Source: Antitrichia curtipendula (taxonomy: Eukaryota > Streptophyta > Bryopsida > Hypnales > Leucodontaceae). Taken from it: DNA of 64,000 nt. The stretch covers positions 29,264,001 through 29,328,000 of the forward strand of contig OX579635.1 of NCBI GenBank assembly GCA_951230915.1, given 5' to 3'. The stretch's first letter is position 1; each line of letters opens with the position of its first letter. The notes below the pieces were generated by a model, which saw only the letters and a list, made by a program, of their open reading frames with translations, was not told the origin of the DNA and did not search any database. The translations under genes and the position numbers were made by a program. This document shows, piece after piece, positions 19,319 through 63,673 of the stretch.

Positions 19319-19842
<524 letters not shown>

Positions 19843-37063: not shown

Positions 37064-37876
37064 GCAAGGGGACCTTCCATTTAGTTACTTTGCTACAAAC
37101 ACATGCTCCTCAATTATTTTGGTGATATAGAATTTGACCCCATCTGAGGTGTTTCACCATATTATGAGTCAATTTGGTCATTTTAAAACCACAAATTCTT
37201 GGTGCTCAACATGTGTACAATGTTCCCAACATATGCACAACGTTTTCTAGTAGTATACAAATAGTCTTGAAGGTTTCATTATATCTAGAGGCCAAAAGCG
37301 AAAGGCCATGAATTTTGGGATTCTTAAAAATGTGATTGACTAAAATTGAAAGGCCTCTCAAAATCAACGACGCTAGCATGCGAGCCTAGAGCGGTGAGCT
37401 TGTGAGCTGCGAACGTGGAACTTGTGAGCTTGTGAGCCTCTAAAACTTAAAAAGAATTAAAAAATCCCCCTAAAAACTTTTCAAATGAAAAAAACTTAAT
37501 TTAACCAAAAAAATGCTATATTTAGTAAGTTATAGGTACCTATGACCGCTAATCCTATAACCGTGGATTTCAATTAATTTTTTAATTGTATTCCAATTTT
37601 CATTTTCCAATGTCAATGGTCCAAAAATGGTCAAAATTTGAAATAGAAATAAAAAAAAGAAGGAAAAATATAGTATAAGAAAATTAAATAAACAACAAAA
37701 AAGATGGAAACAAAATTGGGCTTACCCAAAAAATGAAAAAAAATGACAAAGATAAAATCAAAATTGGAAAATAAATTAAAAAAAAAAGACAAAAATGTTC
37801 TTCAATTTCATTCCAATTGTAAATAAATGTAAATTAATACATTATAAATAAAATATCCAACAAAATGTTCATTCCT
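37064..37876. other. AT-rich spacer before the transposase gene
   Basis: A short tandem GTGAGCTTGTGAGC repeat lies at 37394-37437. From 37600 on, A-rich sequence runs up to the stop codon of the transposase gene. If the two-gene unit is one element, its left end should lie here, but I could not find a terminal repeat. Confidence 0.35.
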
Positions 37877-40800
37877 CTATTCCAAGACTGTAATGATCCC
37901 TGCTCGAACTAGGAGTAACTTCAATTCATTGAAGCTGTAACTTGGTGCATGAATGAATACATCATCATGGACATCCATCTTGCAGAAGTATCTAAACAAA
38001 TAATACAAGTGCTTGCAATTTACGTATTGCTGGCGACCTCCGATTGCAGAAACAACCATGTTAACGAAGTCCGGACATGTGCATGTGGGATACATACCCA
38101 CTGTAATTCGATACACATTTTTGTTAGTGTTTGCCCTTGTCTCCAGCGACACTATTGCACCTAGGCCTGGAAAGGGAAGCAATGTCACTCCTACAATTTG
38201 TCCTCTAACATTGCTTGCGCTCTCCCACTTGTTCCTCTGTTCTGGTGTTGGTGCATTTGCAATTCGACGTATGTTTCGATTGTTCCGAACCGTTGGATAT
38301 TGAGTCGGATTTGGTGGCGGCGGTTGATCATAGAGAACGCTTTTGAATATTTTTGACATGCTGAAAAGTCGACATGGTGATAATATAGGGCTCTCTTGAA
38401 GACGGAAGCCCGCATGTTGCAGTAACAAAGTTTCATCCCTATTAAGATGAGTCCCAGTCAAAATAGGCCAAATTTCAGGCACCTCTGGCCAATCAATGAC
38501 CCACTTCCGCTTTGTGCCTTTCACACATCGTTCAATATCATCCGAACAGAACCAAAAATCAACTACAACCTCACGCTTACTTCCGTAATTTTCTTTTCTT
38601 CCGCGATAGGTGGGAGCTGGAGTTCCCTTTTGTCCCTTTGAAATTTTTGCCGTACACTTCATGTTTGAACCTCGCTGCTGAGCTTGACATTTTGCGTTTG
38701 ATTTGTGGCTAATTTGTGCAATGTGCCATTTTGATGTGTTGCAATCACTTTCAAATGCAATGGGGACATGCTGAAAATTGTTTGTTGCAAGTTTTCTATT
38801 TTTCCCCTCAGAAGACTTTAGAGAAGTCGACGTTGACCTTGTTCGAATACGTGGTTGCAAAAAATTCACCTTATCAGGTCGATGTGAGTCTCCTGCATTG
38901 CCAATGGGCACGTCCAATTTCCTCTTAGTGCTTCCAAAAATCTCCTCTCCTTCCAAATGCGGTACTCGAGTTCCAATACCTTCTGATCCAGGAAGTGTAT
39001 TCAACGCTTCTGCAATTTTCTTAGGATCTCCGCTTCGTCTGGCTGCTCTCAATCTCAATTCCCCTTTTGATGGACCGGATCCACATGCATGACCCCTCAA
39101 ATATGCACAATAATTAGTCATTTGCATCCATGCCCGTATGCTATCATCACAAGTGGCGTCAAACAAATTATTTCCTCAATTCCCGGACATTTGAAGCCAC
39201 TTGTTGTGAATAGTTTCGGACAAATTGCACGAAGGCATGTCAGTCATCTCCTCCAAACTCAATCCCTGCAAAATCCAACAAAATGATACATCAGTTATCA
39301 TGTGAAATATGTTCCTTCAAACCCAAAACTATTTTTTGACATTCATAAATGTTAGAGTTTAAGCCAACTTCAAAAAATATGAAAGACATTCCCCAAAACA
39401 AAATTTAAAATTACAACGCCTCCAAATAAACACTCACTGCTAAAAATTCCTTTTTTTCTATTATATATAACTAAACAATTTCATTCCCATTTTTTTTTTC
39501 ATTCGCTCCAACCTATCAAAAATAGGAGGTCAATCTGGTACCAAAAAACACTAGTCGGATCCGACTATTGCCTAAGTGGTTCCAGCTTCACCTCCTCTTT
39601 TGGGTACCTTCTACTGATTCCTTGCAATTTAAAAAAAAATTGATAAAAGTTCTGATTTCTAATAACTCTACATGTGATTTATAAAATGTATACATGGAAC
39701 CCTAGATTCAATTCTTTAATTTCACTCAACACATTTATCAATGTTTAAAAACAATATACATGTCCAAATTTAAAGGCCACTTACCATTTGCATGAAACCG
39801 CCCCATTGGCGGTAGCGAAAATGCCAAAATGCCAACCAGTGGTCCAAGTGATGAAGTGCTTCTTCACTTGCAGCCCCTGATGATAACCACCACGACCGAA
39901 TTGCAAGGTAACGGGTCTCGGCCTGCTCCATAGTCTCAGAATCTTTGTATTGTTTGCACATTTTGTTGTGTTGATGCTGAAATACATCTTTGATGTGCTT
40001 TTGTGTGTGCTTATGAAGAGAAGTAGTCCAATGCAACAAACATGTCCTTTCACGATTCTCCATCTTTTCATTGGGTGAGCCGTTGCCGTAGACAATTCGC
40101 ACTGCATTCCAATTGGCCATAGCGCTATCTGCCATGAATCCCTTAAAATTTGGGTGATCTACACCGTTCCGTGACATCACATCATCCAAGCACCTCCAAA
40201 ACAACACCTGGATCTCCGTATCTTCAGATTGCATATCGCATGTTGAAATAGTCATGACCTTCTTGTATTCCGGATCATACACGTGGCAAGCCATCGTGGT
40301 CCACTCCTTCACACGCTTGACATGGTCAAACATCATCCACGCGTTCTGAAGATCACCTCCGGGTTGCATGCGTCGCACGAGGTCCACTCCACTACCAGGT
40401 CCTTCCGTGAGCATCTTGAAAACGTACACCTTCTCCTTGCCTTGGCCTGGAAAGACGCTCTCGTGTATAAATTCAAACTTCGACTCCTTCTTCATAGTCA
40501 TTATGTTGTCGATAACCCCCCCTCGGTTGCTTGAGCGAAATGAAGAGATTACATTCCGGATGTTTGGACTACTTAGATACTGGAAACGATCCATTACCTC
40601 CTCTACTTCTTCACCCCTCAACATTTGTTTTTCTCCCTCTCCGTTATGAAACAAATAATCAGTTAGAAAGTCCTTGCTAGCAAATAGAGCAATGGCAGAA
40701 TTAGTAGCCGTTGGTGTTTTTGCCACTTGCTCTGCAATGAGACCACAAATTTTTTCTGTTGAATCTCTATACATGCCCTTTGCCACTGGGTGATTGTGAT

Positions 40801-42136
40801 CTCCAAAGTGAATAGCTGCTCTACTCATTTTTGAATTCTCGCTGTAGCAGTAGTAAATTCTAGCGTCACATGTACTGAGACACGTAGGTGTGACTTTGCA
40901 AACTTTGCAAACTAGAGTAGAATCTTTGGGGGGACTATTTCCTACGGCGAAAGGGAACATTGTATATCCCGTCCATTCTGTGTCGTTCTTCCTACTAGCT
41001 CTCTTCAAGTAATCACAGTGCGGATTTTCACAAGTGAGGTGACTAGCGCAGTATGACTTACGGAACCTCAAGTTGTCAGTATTGTGTATGTTAGTGGTCA
41101 CTACCTTGCACCACGGGTGTCCGTCGTATCGCTTGTCCATTCCCTCCAAGTTGCGCGCGGCTGATGAAGATGAAGAAGATCGACATGGAGGCAGCTCAAA
41201 GACAACATCTCCATTGAAAACAGCAGGCAAGTACTGCACATGATGGTGCTTGATGATATACAAATCCATTGTTGACAAATCATTCCGAGAACGTTGAACA
41301 GTAGCTAGTCTCTTCAAACACTCCATAATGCTTATACGGTCGCCTGGAGTAGGATGCAAAGGTGGACGTAGAAGTGACGACTGCGCAAGACTATTACATG
41401 GAGTTTCCAAAAATAATGGATTACCCATTGAGATCTCATTTGACTTGGATGCAACTGCGCACTGTTGTTTCACAAGTGTCAAATCAGGGGACTCTCCTTC
41501 TGATTCACTAGACAACTCTATGATTGGATCTAGCTTCTTGACTTTCACTTTCCGGAGAATGCCAGTACTTGGTAGTACCGTAAACACTTTGCGAGGTGGG
41601 CTAGATGAAACTATGTGAACTATGTATGGCATATCCACTGTGGAATTATCTGACTCACGACTAATAATCTCGGTGGAGGCACCCAGCATAGATAAGGAAA
41701 GTCCATAGGCTTTGTAATGTCCTACAGGAAAGTACCAGCAATGACCTTCTTCTTCAATGGACTTGACAATGGGAATGGATTGTTGCAACTCACCGGATTC
41801 GGACTTCCTCTCTTCTCCTACGTAGATAGATGACTCTACAAATTTGAAGCGAACATGAAGGAGGTGATTCAAGACTCTAGCCCTACCTCCTTCATCTATT
41901 GGAAAAACAAGTGGAACCTCGTGACCATCAACTCTAATACAAGCCATGGTTGTAATGCACGTATGAAGTACTGCAAGGGAAAATCCAATGTATGAGATGA
42001 GGGAAAACACACCTTCTTTGAGCATATGAAGGGATGTCAATACCAATAATGCAAGACATGAACATGATGAAAAGTTGGTATTGATCATTGATGGTGTAGA
42101 TGGAGACAATTCTGCAACCGCCATCGAAGCCGCCAT
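37877..42136 (-). pseudogene. Transposase with zinc cluster, DDE-like core and SWIM finger
   Basis: Two exons, 39785-42136 and 37877-39265, join in phase across an intron with a perfect donor (ATG|GTAAGT) and acceptor (TTTTGCAG). The first exon holds a Cys/His cluster at residues 360-450 ending in HFGDHNHPV, as in the WRKY-GCM1 fingers of MULE/FAR1-type proteins, then a region resembling a DDE core, with acidic residues in MMFDHVKR (near 604) and FMADSAMANW (near 669). The second exon ends in a SWIM finger (CTCPDF ... NCKHLYYLF). MULE-like transposases have this order. Translation may begin at 42136 or, more protein-like, at MACIRVDGHEV (41947). One in-frame TGA at 39176-39178 in the second exon breaks it. 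The intron carries one of the seven hairpins. The third acidic residue was not located, and the superfamily remains open. Confidence 0.7.
39520..39600. repeat. Intronic hairpin H1
   Basis: Ends AGGAGGT and TTCACCTCCT; centre TAGTCGGATCCGACTA at 39552-39567. It lies in the single intron of the transposase gene. Flanked by GGTACC-type sequence. Confidence 0.75.
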
Positions 42137-42703
42137 ACATGTCTTCTCAGTAACCGGATTTGAGAAAGGAAATGAATGCCAGTAGGCGGTGTTGTGACTG
42201 TTGTCAGAGGTCGTTCACATTTATGAACCTGAGATGCCGGCACATGAAAGGCTTTTCAAATAGATTCATATATGATTTTGCAGGAGTCAGTAAAAGCAAA
42301 GTGTCAGAGCCATTTAGCGATTTTCACGATTCATACTTTTAATACTGACAGCTCTATCATAATGCCCAAAGGCGGCGTTGTCTGGATTCGCTCATGCGAA
42401 AACAAATGAATGCCCAAAGGCAGCGTTCGTTTGGGTTCACTCATGTTCATGAACCAAAAAATGCCAATGCATAAATTAAAATTAAAATAGATTACTGTCT
42501 TATTCTGTAGAAGTCAGTAACAACAAAGTGTCAGAGTCATTTAGGGATTCACACGATTTAATTCTGAAATACTGACGGCGTATTCAACAACCTCTTTTTG
42601 AAAACAACTTTCAAAGTTACTTTAGGCTTCTGACATCACCTTACTCCTTGATGTGGCATCCAAAGCTTGAAGGTTCAAGCTTTGACAGCTTAAGTACAAG
42701 GCG
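42137..42703. promoter_or_regulatory. Divergent intergenic region with paired direct repeats
   Basis: This 570 bp gap separates the divergent transposase and ParB-like genes and so should contain both promoters. It holds two direct repeats of about 68 bp (42284-42351 and 42511-42578) sharing GTCAGTAA, CAAAGTGTCAGAG and AATACTGAC. Each is preceded by a block with AATGCC, GGCGGTGTT or GGCAGCGTT, and ATTCGCTCAT-like phrases. The repeats may bind a shared regulator or the transposase; this is inference. Confidence 0.45.
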
Positions 42704-45006
42704 GTGCGTAAGGTAGAGCCATTTCTGTTTGTTTTTGTGCGAAGGCTGTGTGTAGTTGAAAGCAAACCCTTTGATGTAGTAGACTCTCACCTCATACTAG
42801 TAGAGACTTGGGACGCTCCAACTTCTAGTTTACAGTATAGAAAGAGAAGGAAGAGGCTTAGTTCGTTGTACTATTCATCCCGAAAGGCACTTACGAGATC
42901 TAGGATGAGTCGAGGAAGGAAAATCATGTCAAAGACAAATGGGGTGACTGCTAGAGAGCTGCGCAAAGTTCTACAATTCAAAACTGTTGGGAGTGGTGGT
43001 GAGGACGAAGGTAGACAGTAAGTCCGTCATGCAGTGCAATAAATGTTGGAAGACACGACCGGAGAACAACATGAAGTAGTACTCGAAGTTCCTGCAACTG
43101 TAAGAATGTTTTGAACCTTTCTCTATGTTTTAACGTAGTTAATCTTCATCATAGTCTATGCAGTGTAAGTTCAATGGATATTACAAGTCCAACTTCCTAT
43201 GTAGTCAGACTTTGAATTCCAAGGATCACTTTTCCAAGGATCTTCATCATAGTCTTCATCAAGACTAATTCCACTAAAATCTGTAGAGACTGGAATTCTT
43301 TATTATAGTCCACATATAAGACATGAATCCTCAATGTTTTGAGGGATACTGAGTTTGTGAATGCAAAAATATATTCTAAGCTATAATATGCTTGGAATTG
43401 TTGAATAGCATGCATTTCAAGAATTTCTAGGGCCACTATGAGCATCACAAATTCACAATACATTATTACATGATTTCTTCTCCACTTTTAGAATTTCAAG
43501 AAAAAAGTGTATCTAACAAAGCATATATAGTCTGGAACCCTTGCATAAAAAATATGTAGGTTGGTTTAGGGTCTTCAGATTTCTTTAATTTAATATGATT
43601 TGCTTGTATTAAAACCTCAGTTGGCTTACTGAAATATTTACTAGATGAAATACTAAACAAACTATTTCACAGACAAAAAAACATTAATTATATATTGAAT
43701 TTCCAATTTCTGTTGGATCTATTTATATTTATATGACATTAATCACTATAAAATATAGCCATGGTGAACTTTTTTCTTATGCCAATGTAAATATTACGGC
43801 TAAATGTTCTTCATGTTTCTTGTAAGATGATTGTCTTCTATAATTTCTTTAAAATTTAATTATAATAAAATAAGACAAATATAAAGGTATTGGGGCTAGG
43901 TCTTCCTTCATTTTATTACTACTACATTAAGGTTTTGCTCATTTCTTTATTTTTGTAGAATGTCATTAATTATAAGAAATTTAGATCTTCTAGAGATGTA
44001 TATGTGTTACTAAAAACAAGTTCAAAAATTTAATTCAAAGTCCGTATTGCAAAAAAAATCACAAATGGCGGTCAAAGTCATCTGAAATTTCAGGCTAGAG
44101 TTCAAAATAACTTTTTCCAGCTTCAAATGCTAATATCTTTAAATCTGTAGGGTCAAATTTCATGAAATTTTTTCCACATGACCTTAGATAAATAAATTAC
44201 AAAATTGTACGGTTAGATTCTTAAAAAAATATTATTCTTGTCTTTGTTAATGAACAGAGAACAAGTGGCAGTTTTGAGTGGTTCTTGACAGAATAATGGT
44301 CTTGGTTATTTTGAGGTTAGGAGGGGGTTCTTAAATTTTGTAACAAAAGGCACTATTTTCTTGCATTAAAAAACCTAATCAAGAACACTCCAGACAATAC
44401 CTTGTCACTGTCAACAACAATCGGGATGATCAGGATGATCAAGAACGATCGGGAATGATTTGATAACCATGGATCAGGAACAGTCGAGAATGAGCGGATG
44501 ATCGGGAATGATCGAGAACGTTCCAACTTCCGATACCTCACTGCAGTTGTAGCGTATTGGAGCTAATTTAGGATTTTCTATTTAATAGATGCCGCTTACA
44601 TGTTGATAAGGTAGACTCTTACCTTAACCAACTGAAAATCTAAAGAATCCACACAAACCTGTAGCTAAGCAGCACAACAGCGTTTAGAGGAATCAATAAG
44701 AAGTTCCGCCACTACGGGCTGCTCCACGTCCGGCTAGAAGTTCACTGGGCTGAAGATCACCGGGCTGCTCGAAGTCGAGTTAGAAGAGGCCCCAACAGTT
44801 CATCTTCGACATTGTGCGAGGCTTTGTTTTCTTCCGAAATTCTGACGTGCAGACTGTCATCATGCAGACCACCACGACAAGGCGCAGCGCTAGGCATCGT
44901 CTTCTTCAAGAGGACAACTCGCAAGATTCGGGACACCATGAAGCGCGTCCAATAAAAAAGGTGACAGTTCTTGTGTGAAAGTACTAGTAGGCGGCACCAA
45001 ACCCCA

Positions 45007-45091
45007 GTTTCTGGAGGTGAGGCAAGGCTTCACCAAACCCTAGTCGGATCAGACTAGGGCTGGGTGAGGGTTTGCATCACCCCCCGAAACC
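45007..45091. repeat. Intronic hairpin H2
   Basis: Ends TTTCTGGAGGTGA and TCACCCCCCGAAAC, centre CTAGTCGGATCAGACTAG. First intron of the ParB-like gene, tandem unit 1. Confidence 0.75.
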
Positions 45092-45440
45092 GGTTCTTTG
45101 ACGAGGATTTAAAAATCTCCTTCCGTCCAGCCAGCTGCCGAGATGCTTACTCGCAGCTGCTCAATCCTCCCTGTAGGACTCCGTTCGGCTCACGCAGTTG
45201 TTTGACGCCTGCTTTCTGTGAATTATGCTTGGACGGAATCTGTGATTTTTGCTTTGACGGGTTGGCCTGCTTTCTTGAATTACTGCTTGGACGGGTTGGC
45301 GCCATGTCGATGTCGGTAAATGGGTCGATCAGGATTTCCGAAGCTCAACTCTAGCCATGTCCAAATTTTTTTTAAGATTACCGGATTCCACAGGTAACAA
45401 TTTTTGTCTCAAGTACTAGTAGCCGGCACATCCAGTACCA

Positions 45441-45523
45441 TTTTTTGGAGGTGAGACAAGGCTTCACCGAACCCCAGTCGGATCCGACTAGGGCTGGGTG
45501 AGGCTTTGCATCACCCCTCGAAA
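45441..45523. repeat. Intronic hairpin H3
   Basis: Ends TTTTTTGGAGGTGA and TCACCCCTCGAAA, centre CAGTCGGATCCGACTA. Tandem unit 2 of the same intron. Confidence 0.75.
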
Positions 45524-45901
45524 CCGGTTCTTCGATGAGAATTTCAAAATTTCGACAATTCGGTGAGCCAGCTGCTCAGATGCTTGCTCGCAATTGTTCA
45601 ATCCTCCTTGTAGGATTCCGTTCAGCTCACGCAAAACCCTGACGCCTACTTTCTGTGAATTATGCTTGGACTGGGTCTGTGATTTCTGCTTGGACGCGGT
45701 CTGTGCTTTCTGCTTAGACGGGTTGGCCTGCTTTGTAGAATTACGGCTTGGACGGGTTGGCACCATATCGATGTCGGTAATGGGTGGATCAGGATTTCAG
45801 AAGCTCAAACGTAGTCATAACCAAATTTTTTTTAGAAGTACCAGTTTTCACAGGTACTATTTTTTTCACAAGTACCAGTAGCTGGCTTTCTCGAGAACCA
45901 G

Positions 45902-45983
45902 TTTTTGGAGGTGAAGCAAGGCTTCACAAAACCACAGTCGGATCCGACTAGGGCTGGGTGAGGCTCTGCATCACCCCACAAAA
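45902..45983. repeat. Intronic hairpin H4
   Basis: Ends TTTTTGGAGGTGAA and TCACCCCACAAAA, centre CAGTCGGATCCGACTA. Tandem unit 3 of the same intron. Confidence 0.75.
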
Positions 45984-46532
45984 TCGGTACTTTGACGAGG
46001 ATTTAGAAATTTTGCTCCGTCCAGCCAACTACTCAGATGCTTACTCGCAGTTGCTCAATCCTCAGCGTAGAGAATGCATAGTAATTTTCTGATCTAGCCA
46101 TCCAGTATTCTTAAGTTCAAATCCTAAGAGAGTTGTCGTCTGCATTCTTGAGAGACACTTAGGGTTACATAATGCCCAGTGCATGGACTGCATGGGCTGC
46201 TTGGGCTTAAGTTATAGCATTCTTTAACTCTTGATTCCTGAAATTGTGAAGATTACGTTATTTATGGGTGGGTTTAGGGTTTATTTTTTTTTAAAATTTG
46301 AACAAATGATTTAAAATTCATGGCGGTCTGATTCCAGTTTCATGGCGGTCTGATTCCATTGGTGCTCAAAAGTGTGATGGTGCTCAGATGTCAAATTTTA
46401 GTCATATTAATTGATCCTCTAGTTGGTTATAAATAAGGTTGAAAAAGGGTTGGATTTGATGAGAGATTGACAATTAAATTACCAAATGATATACATACAT
46501 ATCTAAAGCCCATGTCTTTATGTTAGGCCCAA

Positions 46533-46616
46533 TTTAGGGGGGGTGAAGGAGATCCTCATTAAGCCCTAGTCGGATCCAACTAGAGGTTGGTAAGGATTTT
46601 CTTCACCCCCCCTAAA
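46533..46616. repeat. Intronic hairpin H5
   Basis: Ends TTTAGGGGGGGTGAAG and CTTCACCCCCCCTAAA, centre CTAGTCGGATCCAACTAG. Its stem sequence differs from H2-H4 but still pairs. Confidence 0.75.
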
Positions 46617-47000
46617 CAGGTACTAGCATGACGATCTCCTTTATAATTTTAAATGAATTTGTATATTTTAATTTGAAAGACTAATATTTTTAAAGTAACC
46701 AAAAAAACATGTATTTTCATCTTTCCTTTAAAAAATTGAATATAACATATAATGAAAAATGGTATGAGCTGTAATTATGCAAGGATAATCTGACTTGAAT
46801 CTTCCGTAATTTTGGTTATAGGGTCATGTTTTATATAAATATGTAGTATCTGAATTTTGAAGATGAAATGTGAAAATGATAATTATTAAAACAAATGTGC
46901 ATTTTTAATAAACACTTTTAAAATGTTGTGATCTGTGGTTTGAATAATAATGACATGTTTTAAATTAATTCATATGAATATTTTTTACAAGTGGATGAAA

Positions 47001-47090
47001 CCATTTTTGGGGGGTGCACCTAGTGCTCTATAGACCGTAGTTGGATCCGATTCTGGTCTTGAGAGCACTAGCTTCACCCCCAAAAAATGG
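47001..47090. repeat. Intronic hairpin H6
   Basis: Ends CCATTTTTGGGGGGTG and CACCCCCAAAAAATGG; inner stem CTAGTGCTCT pairs with AGAGCACTAG; centre TAGTTGGATCCGATTC. Last hairpin of the first intron. Confidence 0.75.
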
Positions 47091-50000
47091 TTATGTCCTA
47101 AAGCACATCAATACTTTAAGTTCTTTTGTCAGGGCTTTTACTTGTATATGAACTATCTTTGTGTAGGTGTGTGTAAGCTTAAGGTAATTAGCTTTAAAAG
47201 CATTCATTAAAACACTTGGGCCCCTTTCCATCTAAACTACTTCTTCTAGCATTTGTAGTTGATTTCTTGAGATTAGTGTTTCTATATATAGATTCCAAAT
47301 TTTTTTTTTATATTAACATATGTCGCATGTGAGCACTTCTTTACTTTAGATCAATTGTATACATACTTAAATATTATTGTTTTCTCATGTAGGTCCAAGT
47401 AAAACGAGGAAGAAAAGGACCAACCTCAGCCTCCATTGTGCAGCAGGACATTGTCATGGTAGCAAATATTGGTGGCCCATCGCAGACAATGGAAATGCTC
47501 CCTTCTCCTTCCAACATCGACATTTCAGATGATGATGGTGACGAAGAAGACTTGGTAAGCTTTAATGATATTATGGATGCTGCCGATCATGCAACAGATG
47601 AGTTTGAGAAAGAGCCAGTAGTTAGTCGTTTCTCAGACCACCTGCGTTTCCGGAAAGGAAGGCAATCGGTGTTCTCTGAAGAGAGCTCAGAGACTGAGTA
47701 TAGCTTAGAGGATGAATCTTTTGCTACTATTACTAGTCCTTATTTTGAAGAAACTGGGGACAATGCAACTAGTACTCTTGTAAATGGTCCTAGAGTGGTC
47801 TTACTCCATTATAGCTCAGATGAGGACGTGGATGTTGATAGCCCTTTGATCCGGTTTACATCCTACGAGAGTTGGTAGATCATTATGTCTTTATATAAAG
47901 CCCAATGAGGGTGGTTACTTTATTAACAATTTATTTTAATCCATCCATTGTAGTACAACATGTCATTGGCATTAAAGTTTTATGTTTATATTCATCATCA
48001 ATTCAGAAGTTCATGATCTCTTATGAGTTCCATTCAATTAGAACTTTGAGTTTATTTGGTTGGTCATTGCAGATGGAGGAGTCTTCAATAAAAGAGACAC
48101 AATTGGAACGGATTATTAAGACTCCAGGGACGGATGACACCACTCAGCCTGAAATTGAGGAGGAAGACGAAGGAAGTCATATGGAAGAGGATGGCATTGA
48201 TAATGAAGAGAAGGAGCTTCTTGAAGATGAGCTCCGCCGATTGCAGAAGGTCGATTCAGTTGCCACAATTGCTTCGTTAAGAGTGAAACCAGAAAAACTT
48301 TTTCGTTTTTTTATCCCCTTGTGCAGATTGGTGTCCATGCCCATGGTACGACCTACCTTGTCTTCTGATGTGAAGAAGCTGGAGCAAGAATTTTCTCACG
48401 GGTATCGACCAGGGTCTGCCGCATTCTACGTTTCCACTACAAACGAGGCAGGTGAAAACATAGAATTTACAGAGGAAGAAATGCGCAATTGGGGGTCAGT
48501 TTGGCAAAAAGCGAACAATGAGTTCATGGATCATGTTAATTTGCATGAGGCATTGCATTCTTTGAGGAGGGCAAAGTTTTTTGTCTGTGATGGAAATCAC
48601 CGTCTGCTAGCATGGATGAATCACATTTCTAGACTCTATCCAGCAGACGAGGCATGGCACATTGCAGTAGATTGCATCGTTCTTGATACAAAAGAGAAAA
48701 CTGAATTGGCCATGGAAGTCATGCATGACATAAACAAGTAAGTGATTGTTATCCTACATATTTTGTTAGTACATGTTTTAATGTTTTAATTGGGTTTAGC
48801 CTTTTTTTTAGTGAAAAAAGTAGAAAAATGGAATTCTAATTCTAATTTTTGAAATTCAGATCAACGGAAGACTCTCACGTGAAGACCAACTTGGTCCACA
48901 CACTGCATCGTGTGCAGAAGTATGGTCTTTTACTTTTGCCAAAGTTTTTGGAGATGTTAAGGCCGTCAGAGGTAAAGAAATGTATGGCCTCCAGTACTAG
49001 GAAAACCTGGTACTCAATGCCAGCTGATGTATTCACAGCATTCATGTTTCGGGTATGTTTTTGATTTTGAAATTTAATTTACATTGCTATGTTGGTCACT
49101 TGTGTTGATTTATTATACAACACTGTTATTAAGAAGGTTTTGGTTTCTTTCAGCAAGAGATTTCACTAGCAGCGGATGCGACGGGACGAAAGTACAGTAA
49201 GACAACTGCGGAGGCCGACAAAAGTGAGGCTGGCATTGCAAATGCTATGAGAATGGGAGCTAAAGAGAAAGCAAACAAATTATACATGAAGATAATGAAG
49301 TTAGTCGCAGTGGCTAATCCGGCAAATGGTCCTGAATTCCTGGAAGAGGTATTTGTATATTCTCCAAAACAATTTATTGACATACTTTTACTTTCAGAGT
49401 TTATTTTCCATGTGAAATGATGTCGTTTTAATTATGCAGGTTGAGAGGCACTATTGCAATAACGAAGTTCCAGAGATGACACTTGAGAAGCTGCTATTGA
49501 TTGCTACATGCAACACGACTCCTCATCACAAGATAAAGTTTTTGAAGTGGTGGAATTCTTCTATGCCATCCCGCGATGCATAGAAGTTTCCTGCTAAACC
49601 AGTATCTGAGACCCACCTTAGGCCATTCTTGAACAAATGTGTTTGGTATGCTGGGGTAAGTGATTTTGTATTAACTTTTCTAATGTTTTTTGTAGTTGTT
49701 ATTTTTCATTCAATAAAGTTCCTTTGTATTTATGAATATGCATGTGACTAATTTTTCATTTTTTTTGGACATGTATGTCACATTGTCACTTTCTTGAATA
49801 AATAATCTTGTTGTTGCTTTTCTTTTAGATTGAAGATGCAGCTATTGAATACTTTGATGGTGTGATCAAAGGTGATAACATCACTATCAATATGGAAGTC
49901 CCACAGAGGCCAAAGTTCTTGGTGGATTACATAGAAGGTTGGAGGAGGAGGATGTGGGAGCACGGTTTCACGCCCAGTTGAAGGGAGCAAATTATTTTAA

Positions 50001-50192
50001 GAAAAGTGACTCCTTCATGAATTATGAAGGTTCAAACCAAGCGGTTCGAAGAGTTCTATTTCAGTTTGTTCATAGAACCTTCTATTTATTGTTTGAATAA
50101 GCGATGAAGAGTACATATTTCAATTTTATACTTTTACAAGAATGTGTGCGTATAATTAAAAAATTGTTTGAAATAGTGAGGGGTAACAGAAG

Positions 50193-50268
50193 TTGGAGGT
50201 GAATCTGGTACCTCAAAGAGCTTAGTTGGATCCGACTAAGCTCTAGGAGTTACTAGATTCACCTCCAA
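50193..50268. repeat. Intronic hairpin H7
   Basis: Ends TTGGAGGTGAATCT and AGATTCACCTCCAA up to one base, inner stem AGAGCTTAG with CTAAGCTCT, centre TAGTTGGATCCGACTA. It lies between the exon ending near 49977 and the exon starting at 50597. Confidence 0.8.
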
Positions 50269-52075
50269 TTAGTGGTACCATTGTCTTTTAAATTGATTTT
50301 TGTGTATGATAGTTTCTAATGTAAATACAATAATCTGACTATGGTTTTGTAGATCTATACCATGTGAAGCCCCAACTTTTCGCATGAAATGAATTGTTAA
50401 TTTGGTTTTCTTCACTTTCTTGAATATTTGGCTTATTTGCTTTAACATAGCAACCATAAAATGCACTAGTAAATTCTTCTTTATGTGGATAATACTCATT
50501 GTTTTCTTGGTGCTGCATAAAAGAATGTGTTGATTTGTTTTTAGTTCTTTGTACTTTGAAACTTGTATGCAATGACACATTTGAATTACACCGCAGGTAT
50601 TTCAAATTGGAACTTCTTCCAAAGGGTGCAATTGCAGAGAAGGATCTTCCTCCGTTCTTGTCTACTTGGCTTGATCGAAGTTCAGCAGATTGCATGTACA
50701 TCCTAAATCAGCTCCGTATGTTCACGACAGCTCATCTGAGTGGAGGAGGGTGGTATTTAGAGTGTCACATCACATTCACGCCTCCGTCTGAGATGCAATA
50801 CCGGAAGTCTTTTGAGGGTTTAGGTGCCATTGATTTGGACGTCGATGAGTTTGTAGGATTGAGTGATAAACAAAAGAAGAGGGCCATTGCAAGGAGGGAA
50901 CACAATGATAGGAAAAAGGAAGCTAGGGAGAAACTTACCATCATCGCAAAAGAGAAAAAAGAAGCGGAGCGCATTGCGAAGTTAGCAGAGAAGGAGCAAG
51001 AGAAAGAGAAGGAGAAGGAAGAGAAGGCTAAGGCCAAAGGCAAGAAGAAGGTAGATGACAAAAATCCAATTCCGGCATCTTCTACCGTCGACCAAGGCTC
51101 ACAGATGCAAGGTGGGTCTCAAGGTGGATTGAAGAGGAAGGCATTGTCGCAATTGACCGAGGATGTGCTAGCGCATGGCACTCAAGCTCTTATGATTCAA
51201 GATGATGAGGGAGACAACACGAAAGATTTGGTCCTCAATATCTCTATTGTAGACCTTGTGGATGACATGTGCTCGAAGGAACCGTCGTGGTATCCTGAGA
51301 TTATGGAATTTTTGACGAAGGTAATATATTTGATTTGTTATTGCCAAACCATTTTTTAGTTGAATGACATGATGATTTTGTGAGTTCATAATTTATTTTG
51401 TGGAATACAATATGTTTGCAGGTATCGACAGGGAAGCCTCAATTTTTGGATGGTGTCCTAAACCGAAGGCCAGGAGTGGATCTCATCTTCTTTGACTGTC
51501 CAGAGAATTTGCCCGTGCCTGGAATGTTGGTGCCAACAGATGAGATTCCACAGTGGAACGAAGATACAGAGTACGAGGCAATGCATGCGGTATTTGTCTT
51601 TGAATAAAGACATCTCCAGGACCATGGATGTTTGATTATTATTCATTCATTCTCCGTGGACTCAAAGAGCTCTATTCTATGGCTGTGCGAGATTTATCCG
51701 ATGTTGAAGAAGAAGGAGTGGTTGGGCATGAATCGATTGCACTTGACTTCGGCATTGGACAACAAAACCACGGTAAATATAATTGAGTTTCTTTTTAAAA
51801 TGATGTCATGTTATCATTCATTTTGTCATTAAATTCTTACATATGTTTGGTTTAATTTCTTGCAGACGCAGAAGTTTTCAATCACCCTACTTGTGAAGGA
51901 TTTTGGCTCAAAAGGGAAATCCAATTTCTCTTTCAAATTCACCCAAACTATGAAGAATGCAGGCTTGGACATCGGACGTGATGACATTTTGATGAACTTC
52001 ACGAAGGAGAGTGACTTGGCAATGGACGGTCCTAAACCATGGCGTGGGGCTCGTGAAAAGGACCCCCGTTTTTTT

Positions 52076-52228
52076 CAGGGTTGTCATAACGGGCGAGTTA
52101 GGGTCATCGGACGTCCCGGACGGACGGGCAAACCGGACCGGACGGACGGACGGTCCGGACCAACTGGACGGCCTCAATTTCTCAAAGTTGTGGAATTTTT
52201 TTCAATGACACGTCAGCTTGGATAGCTG
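52076..52228. mobile_element. Putative hAT left terminus with CGGACGG-rich subterminal region
   Basis: From 52076 the sequence changes abruptly to CAGGGTTGTCATAACGGGCG, which resembles hAT terminal inverted repeats (CAGGG type). It is followed by GC-rich repeats of CGGACGGACGG at 52115-52175. The matching right terminus (ending CAACCCTG) was not found in the window, so the element may have lost that end. Confidence 0.4.
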
Positions 52229-53146: not shown

Positions 53147-55549
53147 TCAACCATCATCAACGTTATCGTCATTTGGATTGTCGGTCTCCAAAGAAGACGA
53201 CAAAGCTGGTACTTCTACAACCCCTTCATTTTGAGGAAGTGGAGGTGAAAGACTACGACGAGGATTTGGTGGTGGTGGTCCCCTACGACCACGAAGGAGT
53301 TCCTCCTCTCCATCATCAGCATCTCTATAGTAGTTCCGCACTTCTTCGAGGTGATCGGCTCCTTGCCTCCAAAGATCTGGGTTTGCCGGATACTCTTGAG
53401 CTCCTCAGTTGGCTTCCCCATCAACCTCTTCTTCTTCCTCTGATTGCAGTGCGTCAAATTCCTGATTGCGTTCATTCACCGGGATCGGTCCAAGGGCATC
53501 TGGATCAGAATCCTCTGAGTACATATTCGCATCATACCAACGAACTGGATCGGCTCCTGGTCGTTGGCGAAGTACACGGCTATTGGTATAAATATATACC
53601 AGGGACTCTGCCTTTTCAGGGGCCAATCGATTTCGGATCTTATTGTGAACAAAGGAATACATACTCCAATTCCTTTCACAGGAGCTGGCGGAACACGTGA
53701 GGGATAAAATACGCACGGCAATTTTCGAAAGAGCCCGATCTCCAACCCTGTGCCACCATTGGTGGGGAAGCATTTGTGTCGCACGGATGTTGGGTGTCTC
53801 AGCTGGACTGTAGGGTCCAATACCCTCCTCGAATTCTGTTAATTCCGCCATCACATCATCAAAATTGACACCCAGGTTCCCCATCATGTTGCGGATGACT
53901 CTGTACAATGCACGTAGGGCAGTTCGATCTTCCCTGAGCGCCACGTTATCCAAGAGGTATGGATTCAAAAGGGCCGCTGCGTAGTGTGTATCTTCAAAAA
54001 CCATGTGCCATCTTGCACTGAAAGATTCTTCCAAAATGACTACTATGTCATCACGTAAGCTGAAAGATGGTTCTCTTAAAGAAAACACATGCCCTCGCAA
54101 ATTGTGCATTACGAGCCACGCCCGACCCATGGCTGGTTCTCGTCCATCAAACACACGCAAAGCCTTCAATACGTCTTCAGTCATGTACACGTAATTCACA
54201 CACCGTTGCCAGAAAGCCACATCTTCAATGGTTCTTTTGACATTACGTGAAGCGGTAGCTGCTTGCGGTCTATTTTGTTCATTCCTTAGGGTATCAAAGA
54301 AATTTAGAACACGTGGGTGGTTATTCAACCGCTCCAAGACTCCTCTGAGTTTCACCAATCGCTGCAACATGAGGAAATTACAAGCAAAGCGGGTTTCGCT
54401 AGGCACTACGAGTTGTAGATTCGGACTCAACTCGCGGAAAACCGACATAGTCGCATGATGGTTTCGAATGTATTGGCACAATCTTTTTGCCTTGGCAATT
54501 AAATTGGAAAATTCTTGGACTTTGGCCCAGTCTTCCAACATGAGATCTAGTGCATGTGCCATGCAGCCTTGCGCAAAAATATGCGGGTATGTGTTAGTGA
54601 TGTCCTTCAATGCGCCAAGCATGTTTGTTGCATTATCTGTGCACACTTGTGTTACATATTTGGGACCCACCTTCTCAATGTACATGTTCATTTGGTCCGA
54701 TATGTAGCGCATGGTTTTCTTTTGCGAGGTAGTATCAATTGACCCCAAAAATACATCACCTGTGGGGCATGACATCATCACATTCATGAGGGGTCTCCGA
54801 TTGACATCATCCCAACCATCGGTGCATATCGACACCCTGTAGTGCTTGACAGCAAATCCAACCTTCTCTTGAATCTGCTTCTCAATTTGCAACCTCCTCG
54901 GTTCAATCAAATTAGTCCTAAATTGATGGTAAGAAGGTGGACTGTATTCAAACTTCGCCACTGAGGTTGCCCTCACCGCTTCAATGAAGGCTGGATGCCT
55001 TGCCACATTAAATGGCACATTCGCTTCATAGAAAAAATTTGCCCACTTCTCATCCAACTCCTTCCTCTTTGCAATGTTGAATGCGTCCGCCATGCGTTGT
55101 TGACGTAATGATCCAGATCTCGTAGAATTGGATCCAGCAAGACTATTTGACGTTTATAGAATATCAATTCTTTCTGAAACGTTTGCCCCTTCTTCCGCTC
55201 TTCCACCATTGATCCCACCTGTCACCTCATTTTCAGTGGCTTCACTTGAACTTGCAAGAGGAGTTGCTCTAGATGGCGCACTTTGAATTGGTTCTCCTTC
55301 ATACATGTCCCCGACATCGATTCGTAGCGGGACAAATCCTGCACAATTGGCAAATCTATGTCGCACTGGACGAGGCATACTTCGACAAATTGACCTCTCC
55401 GATTTGGAGCCATATCCAAAGTGTGCAAAAGCACGCTCACGTTTGTAACTGAAGGTCCCAGCACAGAAAACACAAGTCACTTTAACCCCATTCTCCGTAA
55501 ACTGAAGCCACGGCTCCCATTCCTTGGTCTGCTTCCTTTGACTTGCCAT
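53147..55549 (-). pseudogene. hAT transposase (BED finger, DUF659-like and hAT C-terminal region)
   Basis: One reading frame of about 800 codons is interrupted by two stops, TAA at 55154-55156 and TGA at 53405-53407. It starts at MASQRKQTKEW (55549). The N-terminus has a BED-type finger (CVFCAGTF ... HFGY). The central part carries SICTDGWDDVNRRPLMN, VCTDNATNMLGA and GCMAHALDLMLEDW, the acidic catalytic residues and CxxH-type motif of hAT enzymes. The C-terminal dimerisation region is CSASSCERNWSMYSFVHNKI. After the TGA, an acidic and proline-rich tail stays open to 53147. An intron removing the first stop cannot be excluded, but no clear GT-AG pair is seen there. It is flanked on both sides by GC-rich arrays that may be subterminal transposase-binding repeats (inference). 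Confidence 0.85.
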
Positions 55550-56336: not shown

Positions 56337-56764
56337 GTCCAGCACAGGAAGCAAGACTTTGAAATGCGACATCTTTGAACCGCCCTTTTCCTTGGAGAGT
56401 GGGAAGCATTAATTTAGCCTCAACAATTTATTTTGGATTCTGACAAGACAATGAAAGCAAGATGCCGAATAAAGAGGTCCATGGCCTAAGATTTGGAAGA
56501 AAATCCATGGAAGAGGATGTCTCCTTTGTTGTGGTGAGAAATGTTTTTTCTTACTTCTTCTAACACTTCAAACTACTTTGAACAAGCATATCATTTAGGT
56601 TGTAAAAAACAATGTAAATTCTTTGATTTAGGAAATGTTTAGGACACTTTGAGGAAATATTTAGTAAATGTTTAATCAATATTTTTGAAATGTAGTGTAC
56701 TAGATAAAAGGATAAAACTGCATTGTATTTGAAATGAAAGAAATAGTAGGGGAGTTATTTAAAA
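56337..56764. other. Spacer without recognised content
   Basis: AT-rich DNA between array 2 and the T-rich satellite. No continuation of the methyltransferase-like frame (a motif I such as DxxxGxG) was found here. Confidence 0.35.
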
Positions 56765-58330
56765 TTCTAGGCCTTCAATATGCAACTGCAATTTTTAATT
56801 CCATCATTTTCTTTCCTAATTTTTCGGGCTTCATTCCTAAAAGTCTTCCATTCTAAGTCACTGTCCTTTTTTGGGGGGCATCATTCCCTTTCCTATTTTT
56901 TTCCAGGAATTAGCACAGGTCTCCCATCCCAACTTGTCAATTATATGGCATTCTTTTTGGGTTGGATCATTTTGTCTTCTTTTTCTGTAGATGCTTCATT
57001 TGTAAGACTCTCCCATCCCAAATTATATTTAATTTTTTTGGTTTAGTTGAATCATTCCTTTTTCTATTTTGTTCCTAACAATCTTCCATCCCAATTTTCA
57101 ATTCATCTTTTTTTGTTGAATCATTTCCATCTCTATTTTGTTTTCGCTTATTTCCTGAAGTTCTCCCACCCCAAGTCTCCAACTCAAAGACACCATTTTT
57201 TTCTTCATTAATTCATAGAACTCTTTTATGTGAACTCCATGCCAATATTTATTCATCCAACTCACTTCCTTTCCTATTTTTTTTCTTCATTAATTCCTAA
57301 AATTGTTTAATCCAACGGTAAGCATTTTTTTTTTGCTTATTTCCTTTCCTATTTGTTTTATTTATTAGCAAAATTATTCCATCCTAAGGGATTCCCTAAA
57401 TTTTTTTCTTTATGGTACGAAATTGAAGTCTATCCATTCACTTCCCATTTTTCATATGACATAAGAGGTAATGTGAAACAATATTTGTTTCATATTTCTT
57501 TCACATTTGTTTGTTTTTATTAGCAACATTTAAAATGCACTTACATTTCTTTCCCTTCCTAATCTTTGTAAAATTCATTAGCAAAATGCCAAAATGGCTC
57601 CATTCCATCATGAGCCCGAAGGCCATTTAAATAATTTAATTTTTGTATTACCTAAGCCCTTCTTATTTTTTGTTAGTGATTTGCAAGATTATTGTATCCC
57701 AAATAGATGCCTTCTTTTTGGGTATATCATTTACTTCCTAATTTTATTTGAACTTCATTTGCAACATTATCCCATGCCATCCCAATGGCCAATGCCCTTT
57801 ATTTTTTGTATATCATTCCCTTTCCTATTTCTTTGGGATTCATTCCCTTATCAAATGTTTCTTGGGATTCATTCCCTTTCCTTTTTGGGGGGGATTCTTT
57901 CCCTTTCCTAATTTTTTGGATTCATTTCTTTTCCAATTTTTTTAGATTGATTAGCAAAATTGTTACATCCCAAGTTATATAAAAACTAAATGGCATTATT
58001 ATTCTCTTCCTAATTTTTCTCCAACTCAATGCCAATTTTTGGCATTCAGTTTACCTTCCTATTTTTTTTGTGCTTCATTAGCAAAATTGCTCCATCTAAA
58101 ATTCTCAATCAAAGGCCATTTAAATTTTGTATTCTCTAAACCCATTCTAATTTTTTTGGGCTTCATTTGTCACGTTATTCTATCCCAACTAAATGCCATT
58201 CATTTTTAAGTAGGTAATTACTTCCCTATTTTTTGCTTTTCTCTATCATTCCTTTGCCTATTTTGCAAGTGAATTTTTACCTATTTCAATCCCTTTTGGG
58301 GGGGAGTTCCATCATTCCTTTGCATATATA
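56765..58330. repeat. Degenerate T-rich tandem repeat, block 1
   Basis: A strongly diverged repeat with a period of about 75-90 bases. Recurring phrases are CATTCCCTTTCCTATTTTTT, CTTCATTAGCAAAATT and CCATCCCAACT followed by ATGCCATT. Short frames in it are rich in Phe and Pro and are artefacts. A related block in the same orientation is at 62150-63380. Confidence 0.75.
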
Positions 58331-58745
58331 TATTTCCATCAAGGCATTAATGACATTTGAAAAGCGTTTTTTCCCCTAATTTCAAGTTCGGGCCACTTCG
58401 TGCCTTCGTGGTCCGTCCAACCTTCCCTACTTCTATTCATTGAGTGGAAACTGGGAATGAATTGTACTCCAATTCAATGACATTTCATTTCATGGTATAA
58501 ATAATTTTAATATGTATGAAGTCCACAAGTCCATTCAAATTTCAAATGAATACGTGCAAAAAATAAATGAAGTCACTTTGGACAAAATCATTCAAAACAA
58601 AATCAAATATATTTCATATGCATAGTGTAATACAAAGTAGGAAAGTATATAAGCCTATATAATATTATAGTGCTAGGAAAATAAGTCTTCTAAGAAAACC
58701 TAAGCTCACTATCTAAAACACTCAAAACTATACTCAAAACTATAC
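58331..58745. other. 3' flank of the RING gene
   Basis: AT-rich sequence after the repeat block, with a doubled AAAACTATACT just before the stop codon at 58746. Probably the 3' untranslated region of the RING gene. Confidence 0.35.
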
Positions 58746-61042
58746 TTAGTCCATGTTCATTGGACTACTTGCACTGCCACTTGGTCCAGCCTCATTGTCA
58801 TGTGTCCCGGCGCGAATTGGAAGGTCTTCATCTGTTCCCAAACGAAGTCTACGAACTGCGGATCGAGTTCTCCTCGCTGGTCCGTCTTCCTCTAAAAGAG
58901 CCTTCAATATTTGTGATTGCTTGAGGCTTTGAAGACATTGGAGAGTTCCCGGGCTATGTTGTTCCAACAAGAAGTCCATCCCATCATTTCGAAAGGTTTC
59001 TCGCCACTCTGACTCCGATAGTTGTGCAAGTTCAGCAGGGTCTGGCATATCAATGTCTTCCCCCCTCCGCATCCCCTGGTCGTCAGTAATGCGAACTCCA
59101 TCAACGCCCCACAACCATCCAAGAGGATGAGGTCCAAATTGGAAGTATTCTTGTGCCTCATTCCAATGCCCATTGAAGCATTGGAAGAAGAAATTCCGTC
59201 GTCCTTGGCTAAAGTTGTCCTTCAATGGAACCAAGTGGTGGCACACCTCCACAATTTGAGCCGGATCTTTTTCCCAACCCCATTCGGTACAAAGTTGTTG
59301 TTTGCCCAACAAATGGATGTTCAATTTCCAACTCCACACCAAGTTTGTTCCCCACTTCTGAGAATGATCAGGGGCATTTTCAGCATTGAATTCCCAATGC
59401 GGTGGCATGTAGGGAACTAATCCAAACAACTCATACAAGCGCTTATGGAAAGGAGCCTTGCATAGTGAACAACGTCGGCGGACAATCATCAAGCTAATTA
59501 GGCAGAATGGGTGGTACAAATGTTCACACGTGCCTAAGTGCATTCCACCTTCCGGGCCAAATGGATTAAGGCAAATGGGACATGTAGTTCCATCGTGTAC
59601 GAAGGTTGAAGGGTTTGGCCACAGTAGTAATGGATTGCCTTCATGGTCCACGGCAGAGCCAACTTCATTCTTGAAATCCCAATCATGTTTGGACCAGTCG
59701 ATGGTTGTTTGTCCACCAGCAATGTCAATGGTTGCCATTTCATCCATGTTGAAATGATCATCCACTAGGGCCCACGATGTCAAACCAAAAACCCTCTCTT
59801 GATTGTGTGTGCCGTAATTGTGGTCAATTTTTTTGAATTCCTCCACCATTTGCCTAGTCCTGTCAACACTGAAGACACATGCCAGCTTCCATTGGTAATA
59901 CTGCTCCATCAATGCATGCAATTGATTTTTCAATGTCAAATTCATTGCAAGCGCGTCCGTCAGTTGGATGCTTTGGTCCACTGGCCCTGCTGCACCTACA
60001 TTTGCGGGTAATTCTCCAAAGGACAAAGAATCATCCTGAGTATCCATTGTTGCACCAACTTCTGTAGGTTCCAATAGAATTTGAGAATTATTTGAAGGCC
60101 CTTGCGCTTCCCCACGTGGATCTTGACCACGATTGGCCAATGTTGCTGCCTCAAGAGCGTGTCGAAGTACCTCCATCTCACGTTGTTGTTGATTGATAAT
60201 GTTGTCCTTCTCTTGCATGTCTTCTCTCATTTTGTTAACATCATTATACAAAGAATGCAATTCCTCATTCTTCTCATTCACTTCAATCAACAAACCCTGG
60301 ATTCGGTTTGTAGCAGCTGTAACATCCACAATTCCTACCACTGGTTCGTCAATAGGTGGCAACTGTTCCTCCACAACATTTTCGTGTAAAACCTCAGCAG
60401 TTTGACGCGAAGCCCTCCTCTTTTTAGCTCGTAGTAGTTGAGTTCTATGGCTGACTACAACTGGTACACGAGATCCATCTGAGTCGTCGTCCGTAGATGA
60501 GTCTTCAGTGTCATATCTTTGTGGTGCTTGAACCTGCGTATTTGTTTTCCCTAGACCACCTTCCGGGTATCTTTTTACCCCCCTTGGAATGAATCCATTT
60601 GCTGGAGTAGGAATATTGACATTTTCTCCCATTTGCTTCAAAGTTGACCAATCCACTCTCTTGTTCAACTTCAGCTCCGCATAGACCCCTCGTGCAAGGA
60701 AAAGTTGCACTTCATTGTGTATGACGTTTGAGAGAGCATACAACACTTGGTACACCTCAATGCATTGATTTGTAAACTCTTCGTCCAGACAGTATTTTAA
60801 ATTTGCCTTGTGGAAGCGTCTGTGACAGTTGTGTCGCTCTTCCGGGAACAACTTGTCTATGGGCACCACTCAATGTAATTGGCGCAGTCATCATATGTCC
60901 GTGGTTCAAGCACGCCCTCCCACCCCCTGAATGCAAGCTTGTCAGGGTTTCGTAGAACATGTAGTCGCTTACGATGTTTGTTTCCGGCTCGTGGTCGGGT
61001 CCTATCTCGTTCTTCCTTGGTCATTCTTGGTGGTGTATCCAT
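58746..61042 (-). CDS. RING-H2 finger protein with coiled coil, probable one-base frameshift
   Basis: The main frame is open from 60869 to 58746 (707 codons) but has no ATG until 60632. A second frame starting at MDTPPRMTKEERDR (61042) reads to DDCANYIEW and runs into a stop at 60857, exactly where the main frame begins with VPIDKLFPEERHNC. One missing base in TGGTGCCC near 60868 would explain the break. Residues 185-245 of the main frame are coiled-coil-like (NEKNEELHSLYNDVN), and a RING-H2 is at 430-470 (CPIC ... CEHLYHPFC ... CSLC). RING-H2 proteins usually act as ubiquitin ligases. No intron is seen. It sits between two T-rich repeat blocks and just below GC-rich array 3, so it is probably carried by a mobile element rather than a host gene (inference). 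Confidence 0.65.
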
Positions 61043-61634: not shown

Positions 61635-62149
61635 ATGATTTAAATATACGAAGTTAATGTGCTTAGACATATTTCCATTTCCTAAGGTAGAAGGCTCGAA
61701 AAGAGTTTTGGCATTAAGAACTGCCCCTATAAGTGGTTGTAGAATGGACATGATGCAGTTTTCAAATTGACCTCAAAAGACAAAAAGGAAGGAAGGAAAA
61801 AAACATTCTTTATCACAAGAGCCAATCATTGTCTTTGCTATCCCCATTTTCTTTAGAATTGCAATATGAAGGACGTAAGAATATAAATAGGGACCTAGGA
61901 CACATCTCCTTTGAAAATTTATAATTAATTCAATAATGTTTAAAAAAATATGAAACCGATTGGGCTACATTCCTCATCAATTTTTCTTGGTTTCAAGGAT
62001 GAGCTTAAAAATATACCCATGTAAAGAAATACTGTAGAAATGCGAACCAGCCCTTAGATGAGTGATTTCTGAGCCTTCTACATTACTCCATGTTCTAAGT
62101 GACTCTAGCAGTCCATATTGAGATTTAATGTTAGATCATATCACTCTAA
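61635..62149. other. Spacer without recognised content
   Basis: AT-rich DNA between array 3 and the T-rich repeat; I see no gene or element end. Confidence 0.35.
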
Positions 62150-63380: not shown

Positions 63381-63673
63381 AGACATAGTGAAAAGATAAA
63401 GTGTATGTATTTTTATACCAAACTATTGCATTCACTATTTTTATAAAAGTTTTATCATCAATTCATAGAACTCATAAACATGCAATGAGAAAGAACAATG
63501 ACATAGCAGGTTAATATATTCACATGAAATTTTGAGTGTACAATGCATCCGACTTCATATATATTTGAGGTGTTCGGCAATTGCGAAGTACATACACATG
63601 GTCCTCTATGAGGATGATTTACCTTCTATGCCTGAACTATATGCTAAGCTACAAAAAGTAAAAAAACTAAATA
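63381..63673. other. 3' flank of the edge kinase gene
   Basis: About 290 AT-rich bases after the kinase-like stop codon at 63674, probably its 3' untranslated region. Confidence 0.4.

Follow-up and report, generated by a model that had tools for sequence, protein, structure and literature searches.

Fungal KDZ transposons carry TET/JBP genes, which encode DNA-base-modifying proteins. Among retroelements, retrotransposons have been described with captured C5 methyltransferases (PMC5890265) or with a domain that demethylates N6-methyladenosine (PMC9289625). In Arabidopsis, the VANC protein of the VANDAL elements, which are Mutator-like elements (MULEs), is described as binding a short motif in the intron, intergenic and terminal parts of the element and removing silencing (PMC5735166). 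The closest described system is Sola1-1_Ec32 of Ectocarpus, a 21.5 kb transposon with a ParB-methyltransferase gene, alongside which green- and red-algal transposon proteins are cited (PMC12477816). Here we analyze a 64,000-nucleotide window (C3:29264001-29328000) of the moss Antitrichia curtipendula, whose genome comprises 400 Mb in 303 contigs. Dynein heavy chain sequences were found at eight places in this genome, which argues against a flowering-plant host. The window contains a putative MULE-like transposase gene on the minus strand and a predicted ParB-methyltransferase gene on the plus strand from about position 47393, the head-to-head pair that had been noticed earlier from the sequence (hereafter the original prediction). 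The two genes almost certainly belong to one multi-copy DNA transposon with short terminal inverted repeats, 10-bp target duplications and two divergent genes, as judged from comparison of its copies.

The moss element resembles Sola1-1_Ec32 in being large and in carrying one accessory gene on the strand opposite to the transposase. The predicted products are also alike, each a protein of about 1,100 residues with a ParB-like domain and a methyltransferase domain of the N4-methylcytosine/N6-methyladenine (4mC/6mA) type; both domains lie in one predicted protein encoded opposite the transposase, as in the algal type, which was compared by its published description (PMC12477816). The transposase differs, being of the Sola1 type in the alga and MULE-like here. 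Furthermore, motif IV of the methyltransferase-like domain is degenerate in the moss protein, a motif on which the available part of the algal description is silent, and element-specific palindromes are described here. The likeness to the modifying retrotransposons lies in the acquisition of nucleic-acid-modifying domains, but those are retroelements with other enzymes. With the fungal KDZ transposons the moss element would share a gene of the DNA-base-modifying type; the enzyme class and the host group are different.

The outer flanks of the element were aligned with those of six close copies, whose transposase exons are 87-96% identical. The left end is at position 37365 of the window (the numbering used throughout), where all the close copies start and where their flanks differ at one exact point. 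The right end is at 67249, 3.2 kb beyond the window, the element resuming after a nested hAT element. The unit first proposed, 37877-52075, must thus be redrawn, because 52075 is merely the hAT insertion point. The 10-bp target-site duplication CTCTCAAAAT occupies 37355-37364 on the left and 67250-67259, outside the window, on the right; perfect 10-bp duplications were found in all six copies having both ends, the window copy included. The left terminal repeat (37365-37424, plus strand) has a start shared by the close copies, and the reverse complement of the right end begins CAGGGTTGCTAGCGTGCGAGCC. The terminal inverted repeats are short and imperfect: GCTAGCGTGCGAGCCT is exact at both ends in three of the six copies (c2, c3 and c7), and in the other three it has one or two base changes at one or both ends. 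For c4 the right end was not recognised within the stretch fetched, and the right end of c5 was placed by matching a string from the alignment. Five copies measured without the hAT insertion are 15.2-17.9 kb long; the window copy, hAT included, is 29,885 bp. Homology to 37365-52077 of the window was found in all six other close copies, with both genes in identical layout, and is broken only at insertions (2.4 kb in c3; 0.9 kb in c5) and in intergenic gaps. Copies c2 and c6 are 98.3% identical over their whole length, and the family has therefore probably moved fairly recently. The left flank of c7 (C8) holds the right part of a more distant family member, inverted and 77-80% identical; elements thus appear to nest or cluster.

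Genome searches for adjacent divergent loci gave the same picture. The whole transposase exon was scored at 55 of 1,891 candidate places, a 251-residue piece of it at 150 of 1,470, and the ParB exon at 150 of 1,309. A ParB exon pointing away was found within 25 kb of 51 of the 55 transposase exons, compared with a mean of 0.29 and a maximum of 3 in 200 runs of random placement (some contig sizes were estimated). Among the matches listed, a ParB exon stood beside 109 of the 150 transposase pieces and a transposase beside 111 of the 150 ParB exons, so that the two genes do not occur mostly alone, the finding that would have told against the pairing first proposed. The unpaired transposase pieces included one other arrangement within 25 kb. 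Each gene is multi-copy, with at least 150 scored places, which might allow a chance juxtaposition of unrelated genes or of two elements nested together. We regard this as exceedingly improbable and have rejected it on the homology between copies, the single orientation at 51 of 55 places, the common ends and the perfect target duplications. In a public protein set, 5 of 38 transposase matches share an exact longest-contig size with a ParB match among the 120 of 385 ParB matches listed (15,646; 38,454; 96,476; 170,958 and 185,737 bases), which suggests that further contigs in public collections contain the two genes together. No relative of the transposase was found in the viral_contigs set. 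Some transposase copies of equal or near-equal score are paired on one chromosome (C9:25073974 and C9:25148556; C5:6221308 and C5:6345142); these are possibly segmental duplications carrying elements.

The transposase was originally predicted to have a WRKY-GCM1-like cluster, a DDE-like core and a SWIM finger. Its main exon, from a MACIRVDGHE start judged from relatives, lies at approximately 39785-41947 on the minus strand, within a frame that is open over 39770-42214 (814 codons); both exon ends are approximate. The 3' exon or exons (37877-39175, minus strand) contain an open frame of 432 amino acids. The SWIM finger pattern is CxCx(n)CxH, and a CxC-x19-CxH arrangement at 38009-38083 fits it as a pattern, with no profile match. 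A Cys/His cluster and conserved aspartates are present in the alignment of relatives, and these we take to be the corresponding MULE-type motifs. No MULE-type or other relevant Pfam family was matched by the first exon of the window copy, by the 3' exon, or by the first exon of 13 family members. Some MULEs have no terminal inverted repeats; this element has them. Target-site duplications of MULEs are given as 8-11 bp, a range into which the 10-bp duplications fall, and their terminal repeats as typically long (PMC6446971). The short repeats of the present element, together with the blank Pfam result, would fit a transposase of another superfamily, for example KDZ-type or undescribed, in an element that merely resembles a MULE. 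The duplication length, the SWIM-type pattern, the Cys/His cluster and the aspartates make this quite unlikely, and on the same duplications, terminal repeats and residue patterns a MULE-like assignment is supported.

The second gene has at least nine exons within the window, most of them with GT and AG at their junctions, and about 11 in all; its exon lengths add up to a predicted product of at least about 1,100 residues. From the splice sites we infer that the exons form one protein with both domains. All exons are on the plus strand and were compared with those of the copies. Exon 1 (47393-47872) is the 5', acidic exon, and its join to the next is tentative; a possible 5' end is offered by an ATG-containing open stretch near 42905, for which no joining splice phase was found by hand. 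Exon 2 (48073-48737) encodes the ParB/sulfiredoxin-like domain, with DGNHR at 48589-48603, and is followed by exon 3 (48860-49052), exon 4 (49154-49348) and exon 5 (49440-49655), the last with an in-frame stop at 49581 in the window copy. The 3' end of exon 6 (49829-50044) is approximate; over the stretch compared, five of the other six close copies have 273 nt and the window copy has 272 nt, a one-base difference that breaks its frame. Exon 7 (50597-51320) encodes a linker rich in charged residues. Exon 8 (51422-51772) holds the motif IV position of the methyltransferase-like domain, with DCPE at 51494-51505 and an in-frame stop at 51605. Exon 9 (51866-52075) is interrupted by the hAT, carries on beyond it, and in other copies extends to motif I (VVLDCTAATG). 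With two stops, the length change in exon 6 and the insertion in exon 9, the window copy of this gene is broken.

A ParB/sulfiredoxin-like domain had been claimed for the second gene, and this is borne out by a predicted structure from a 121-row alignment, which supports the fold of the ParB N-terminal domain. This model superseded one from 30 rows, which had a predicted local distance difference test score (pLDDT) of 63 and weak matches; a profile search with the 30-row alignment against PDB sequences gave a single irrelevant weak match. The nucleotide-site motif of ParB has the form DGxHR. The corresponding motif here is DGNHR, of which the D, G, N, H and R are each kept in at least 90% of the 121 sequences. 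The likeness to bacterial ParB and Noc (PDB 7bm8, 7ol9) is in this N-terminal fold; the moss gene differs from theirs in its roughly 11 exons and in having no recognised helix-turn-helix domain, a point weighed below.

The methyltransferase-like motifs noted in the original prediction have a mixed standing. Their order is DLIFFDCPENLPVPG and, further on, EGDVVLDCTAATG-ASITACRGTGRHIVALEED, so that motif IV precedes motif I within one putative Rossmann-type domain, as in the beta class and as in CcrM. The PDB sequence of CcrM (6pbd) was matched with an E value of 0.0021, collinear across both motifs (residues 50-265). Pfam N6_N4_Mtase was matched at 0.0026 by the second half and 0.0063 by the whole part, below its curated cut-off, and by three of 12 profile members; the NCBIfam CcrM model gave 7.7e-6, far below its cut-off, and PHROG methyltransferases matched from 5.6e-5. 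A beta-class fold, weak by profile but collinear with CcrM, is thus supported; in the 14 outside homologues and the nine element copies, however, the usual catalytic motif is found in degenerate form. Instead of [DNS]PP[YFW], which occurs in none of the 14, the motif IV letters read DCPE in six, DCQE in four, and DCSE, DYSE, DCHE and HCPE in one each. The window and the six close copies have DCPE, and two distant copies have DYHE and DCQE. Where CcrM has DPPY the moss protein has DCPE, the aromatic residue being replaced by a conserved glutamate.

These letters bear directly on whether the product of the second gene is a working DNA methyltransferase (6mA or 4mC) with the element's own DNA as its target, as has been proposed for the algal proteins. 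The beta-class order, the conservation of motif I and of the acidic residue after it, and the identity of the nearest PDB sequence, an adenine methyltransferase, would all agree with such an enzyme, as would the 4mC or 6mA activity predicted for the Ectocarpus protein in its published description (PMC12477816). The absence of a standard catalytic motif from the outside homologues and from both distant copies, and the alteration of the first glycine of motif I FxGxG (TAATG), argue the other way. An active enzyme is on balance unlikely, and because the catalytic motif is degenerate the name 'DNA-modifying enzyme' is so far unsupported. A phage origin was considered separately and rejected: a tblastn search of 50,697 phage records turned up no more than weak methyltransferase matches (421 records with E values reaching 10; the lowest in the 10 rows listed was 0.05), and the sole match to a ParB relative was non-significant.

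Two more distant copies, d1 and d2, were taken from the transposase list for their open transposase frames (79% and 76% identical) before the ParB positions were known. Both contain all 11 exon stretches of the second gene, with identities of 49% and 36% for exon 1 and of 54-78% for the other exons, and CTAGCAACCCTG is kept at the right end of both. Stops occur in four of the 11 matched stretches of d1 and in none of d2. At the DNA level the second gene of the window aligns with these copies but the gap between the genes does not, apart from a 70-bp match outside the d2 element. In comparisons with the most divergent close copy (six pairs each), the ratio of nonsynonymous to synonymous substitution (dN/dS) was 0.23-0.29 for the second gene (eight exons, without 6, 10 and 11) and 0.24-0.28 for the transposase. 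The other 15, closer pairs gave 0.38-0.85 and 0.33-0.77, respectively; higher values in closer pairs are expected if recent copies decay. By this measure both genes appear to be under similar constraint and the second gene to be kept under purifying selection.

The original prediction had also held that repeats in the gap, and one hairpin family in introns of both genes, tie the pair together, and both observations stand. The palindrome GTCGGATCCGAC forms part of longer hairpins, which lie between the genes as well as in introns of each. In the transposase intron the hairpin is at 39510-39610, with core AGTCGGATCCGACT at 39553-39566. The gap contains repeats about 434-460 bp apart (45004-46070) with one hairpin each (cores at 45042, 45476 and 45936), a further hairpin at 46515-46634 (core at 46568) and a weaker match at 46995-47095 (core at 47039); the exon 6-7 intron of the second gene has one at 50182-50279 (core at 50224). 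The seven close copies have five to seven cores each, allowing up to two mismatches. Element sequence totalling 127 kb contains the exact string GTCGGNNCCGAC 30 times, and 166 kb of neighbouring sequence does not contain it, the 30 coming from related copies rather than from independent events; with one mismatch the numbers are 46 inside and 1 outside. Over the genome, TAGTCGGATCCGACTA with at most one mismatch was found at 244 places and its reversed control at none. Among 50 exact places listed (C1-C3), 43 had a transposase piece or ParB exon from the lists no more than 15 kb away, against a random mean of 0.84; five of the rest were within 25 kb of a transposase and two were far away. Some cores are at fixed offsets, 233-235 bases beside five minus-strand transposase copies, including that of the window. 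Thus, as with the VANC-type elements, a short motif is concentrated in non-coding sequence of the element that carries it.

In the distant copies the core is kept and the arms are of different sequence. In a forward test on five further exon 6-7 introns, four had a foldback centred on the core and one did not; the foldback of i35, which is closely related to d1, has two core mismatches, and i40 was left out of the count as its stretch ended before the intron. When the window, d1 and d2 are added, the hairpin is present in six of eight introns. Pairing of the arms outside the core was strong in three (scores 46-56), moderate in two (24 and 29) and 18 in d1; swapped arms averaged 18.9 and reached at most 40, and the 99th percentile of shuffled arms was 24. 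Predicted energies of the six hairpins were -31 to -71 kcal/mol over 96 nt.

From these features we propose that the second protein would be an accessory factor that recognises the palindromes of its own element through the ParB-like part, the palindromes being places where it may bind. The methyltransferase-like part would then bind S-adenosylmethionine, and would either modify nearby DNA through a non-canonical site or, more likely because the DPPY motif is lost, act as a binding or scaffold module. The outcome would be to set element copies apart from host DNA and to preserve their capacity for expression or movement, in the manner of VANC for VANDAL elements; we infer, by this analogy, that the protein marks or shields the element. 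The parallel with VANC includes a MULE-type element, an accessory gene, and a short motif concentrated within introns and between genes, partly in repeats (PMC5735166; PMC10398659). Binding and anti-silencing have been demonstrated by experiment for VANC, whereas the moss system is known from a sequence motif. The available parts of those accounts mention no ParB or methyltransferase domain for VANC, and the moss motif differs also in being a palindrome inside a hairpin. Taken together, the one-element interpretation and the accessory-factor mechanism stand at about even chances. A bolder version, which we think improbable, is a eukaryotic system like parS, in which a ParB-like nucleotide-dependent clamp would load on the hairpins and spread, a methyltransferase-like domain with a rebuilt site would mark or read the copies, and protein and palindromes would have co-evolved for self-recognition.

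Several observations weigh against the proposed accessory factor or the identity of its parts. No helix-turn-helix DNA-binding domain was recognised in the second protein, and Pfam was blank for exons 3-6. All the methyltransferase profile matches are under curated cut-offs; the PDB list below CcrM consists mostly of unrelated T-cell-receptor chains, followed by DpnA, and a 12-sequence profile matched CcrM more weakly (E 0.012) than the single sequence did. A partner is missing from the lists for 41 of the 150 transposase pieces and for 39 of the 150 ParB exons, a remainder that is no evidence of solo genes because the lists hold only the best matches. The blank Pfam result for the transposase belongs here as well. 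The palindromes, moreover, might just as well be used by the transposase or function as hairpin RNAs, and the arms of d1 outside the core pair no better than swapped arms. Hairpins that have nothing to do with the second protein, whether transposase binding sites, hairpin RNAs that feed or block small-RNA silencing, or foldback elements inserted early, are a substantial possibility, if somewhat short of an even one. They would agree with the location of the hairpins in introns of both genes, by which both transcripts would contain them, and with their absence from two of the eight orthologous introns (d2 and i38). A pure RNA hairpin needs no fixed core, yet the core stays while the arms change, and the listed genome places are concentrated in these elements, unlike those of a free foldback family.

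The hAT element nested in exon 9 is not part of the ParB element proper. It spans 13,851 bp, from 52076 through the end of the window at 64000 to 65926, begins with CAGGGTTGTCATA, has a matching inverted end at 65926, and is flanked by the 8-bp duplication GTTTTTTT (52068-52075 and 65927-65934). Its transposase is at 53405-55153 on the minus strand (Pfam DUF659 and Dimer_Tnp_hAT). It carries G-rich repeats of the GGGCGGGGACTC type and a 707-codon open frame (58746-60869, minus strand) with a RING finger (Pfam zf-RING, E 6.6e-5, below cut-off), possibly another accessory gene; T-rich degenerate repeats around TTCATTCCCTTTCCTATTTTT, seen by eye, flank it at 56420-58700 and 62100-63600. Elsewhere in the window are a perfect (ATAG)131 microsatellite of 524 bp (19319-19842, 100% matches) and a long open frame of 567 codons (15237-16940, minus strand) that looks protein kinase-like by eye alone.

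A literature search found no ParB-methyltransferase transposon reported from mosses or other land plants or from a MULE-like element, and no lost catalytic motif or linked palindromes reported for such transposons. The suggestion that a plant element combining these genes would be new therefore needs narrowing: since algal ParB-methyltransferase transposons are already described (PMC12477816), what may be new is the element type and the host in which the genes are combined, the kind being known. The similar accessory gene described in a brown alga, there associated with a different transposase superfamily, suggests a portable module. In the arms race between transposons and host silencing, few counter-measures encoded by the elements themselves are known from plants. 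The present family is large and abundant, has recent copies, and retains a prokaryote-type gene of this predicted class, together with palindromes concentrated in the family, and these palindromes make the idea of recognition directly testable with one protein and short probes.

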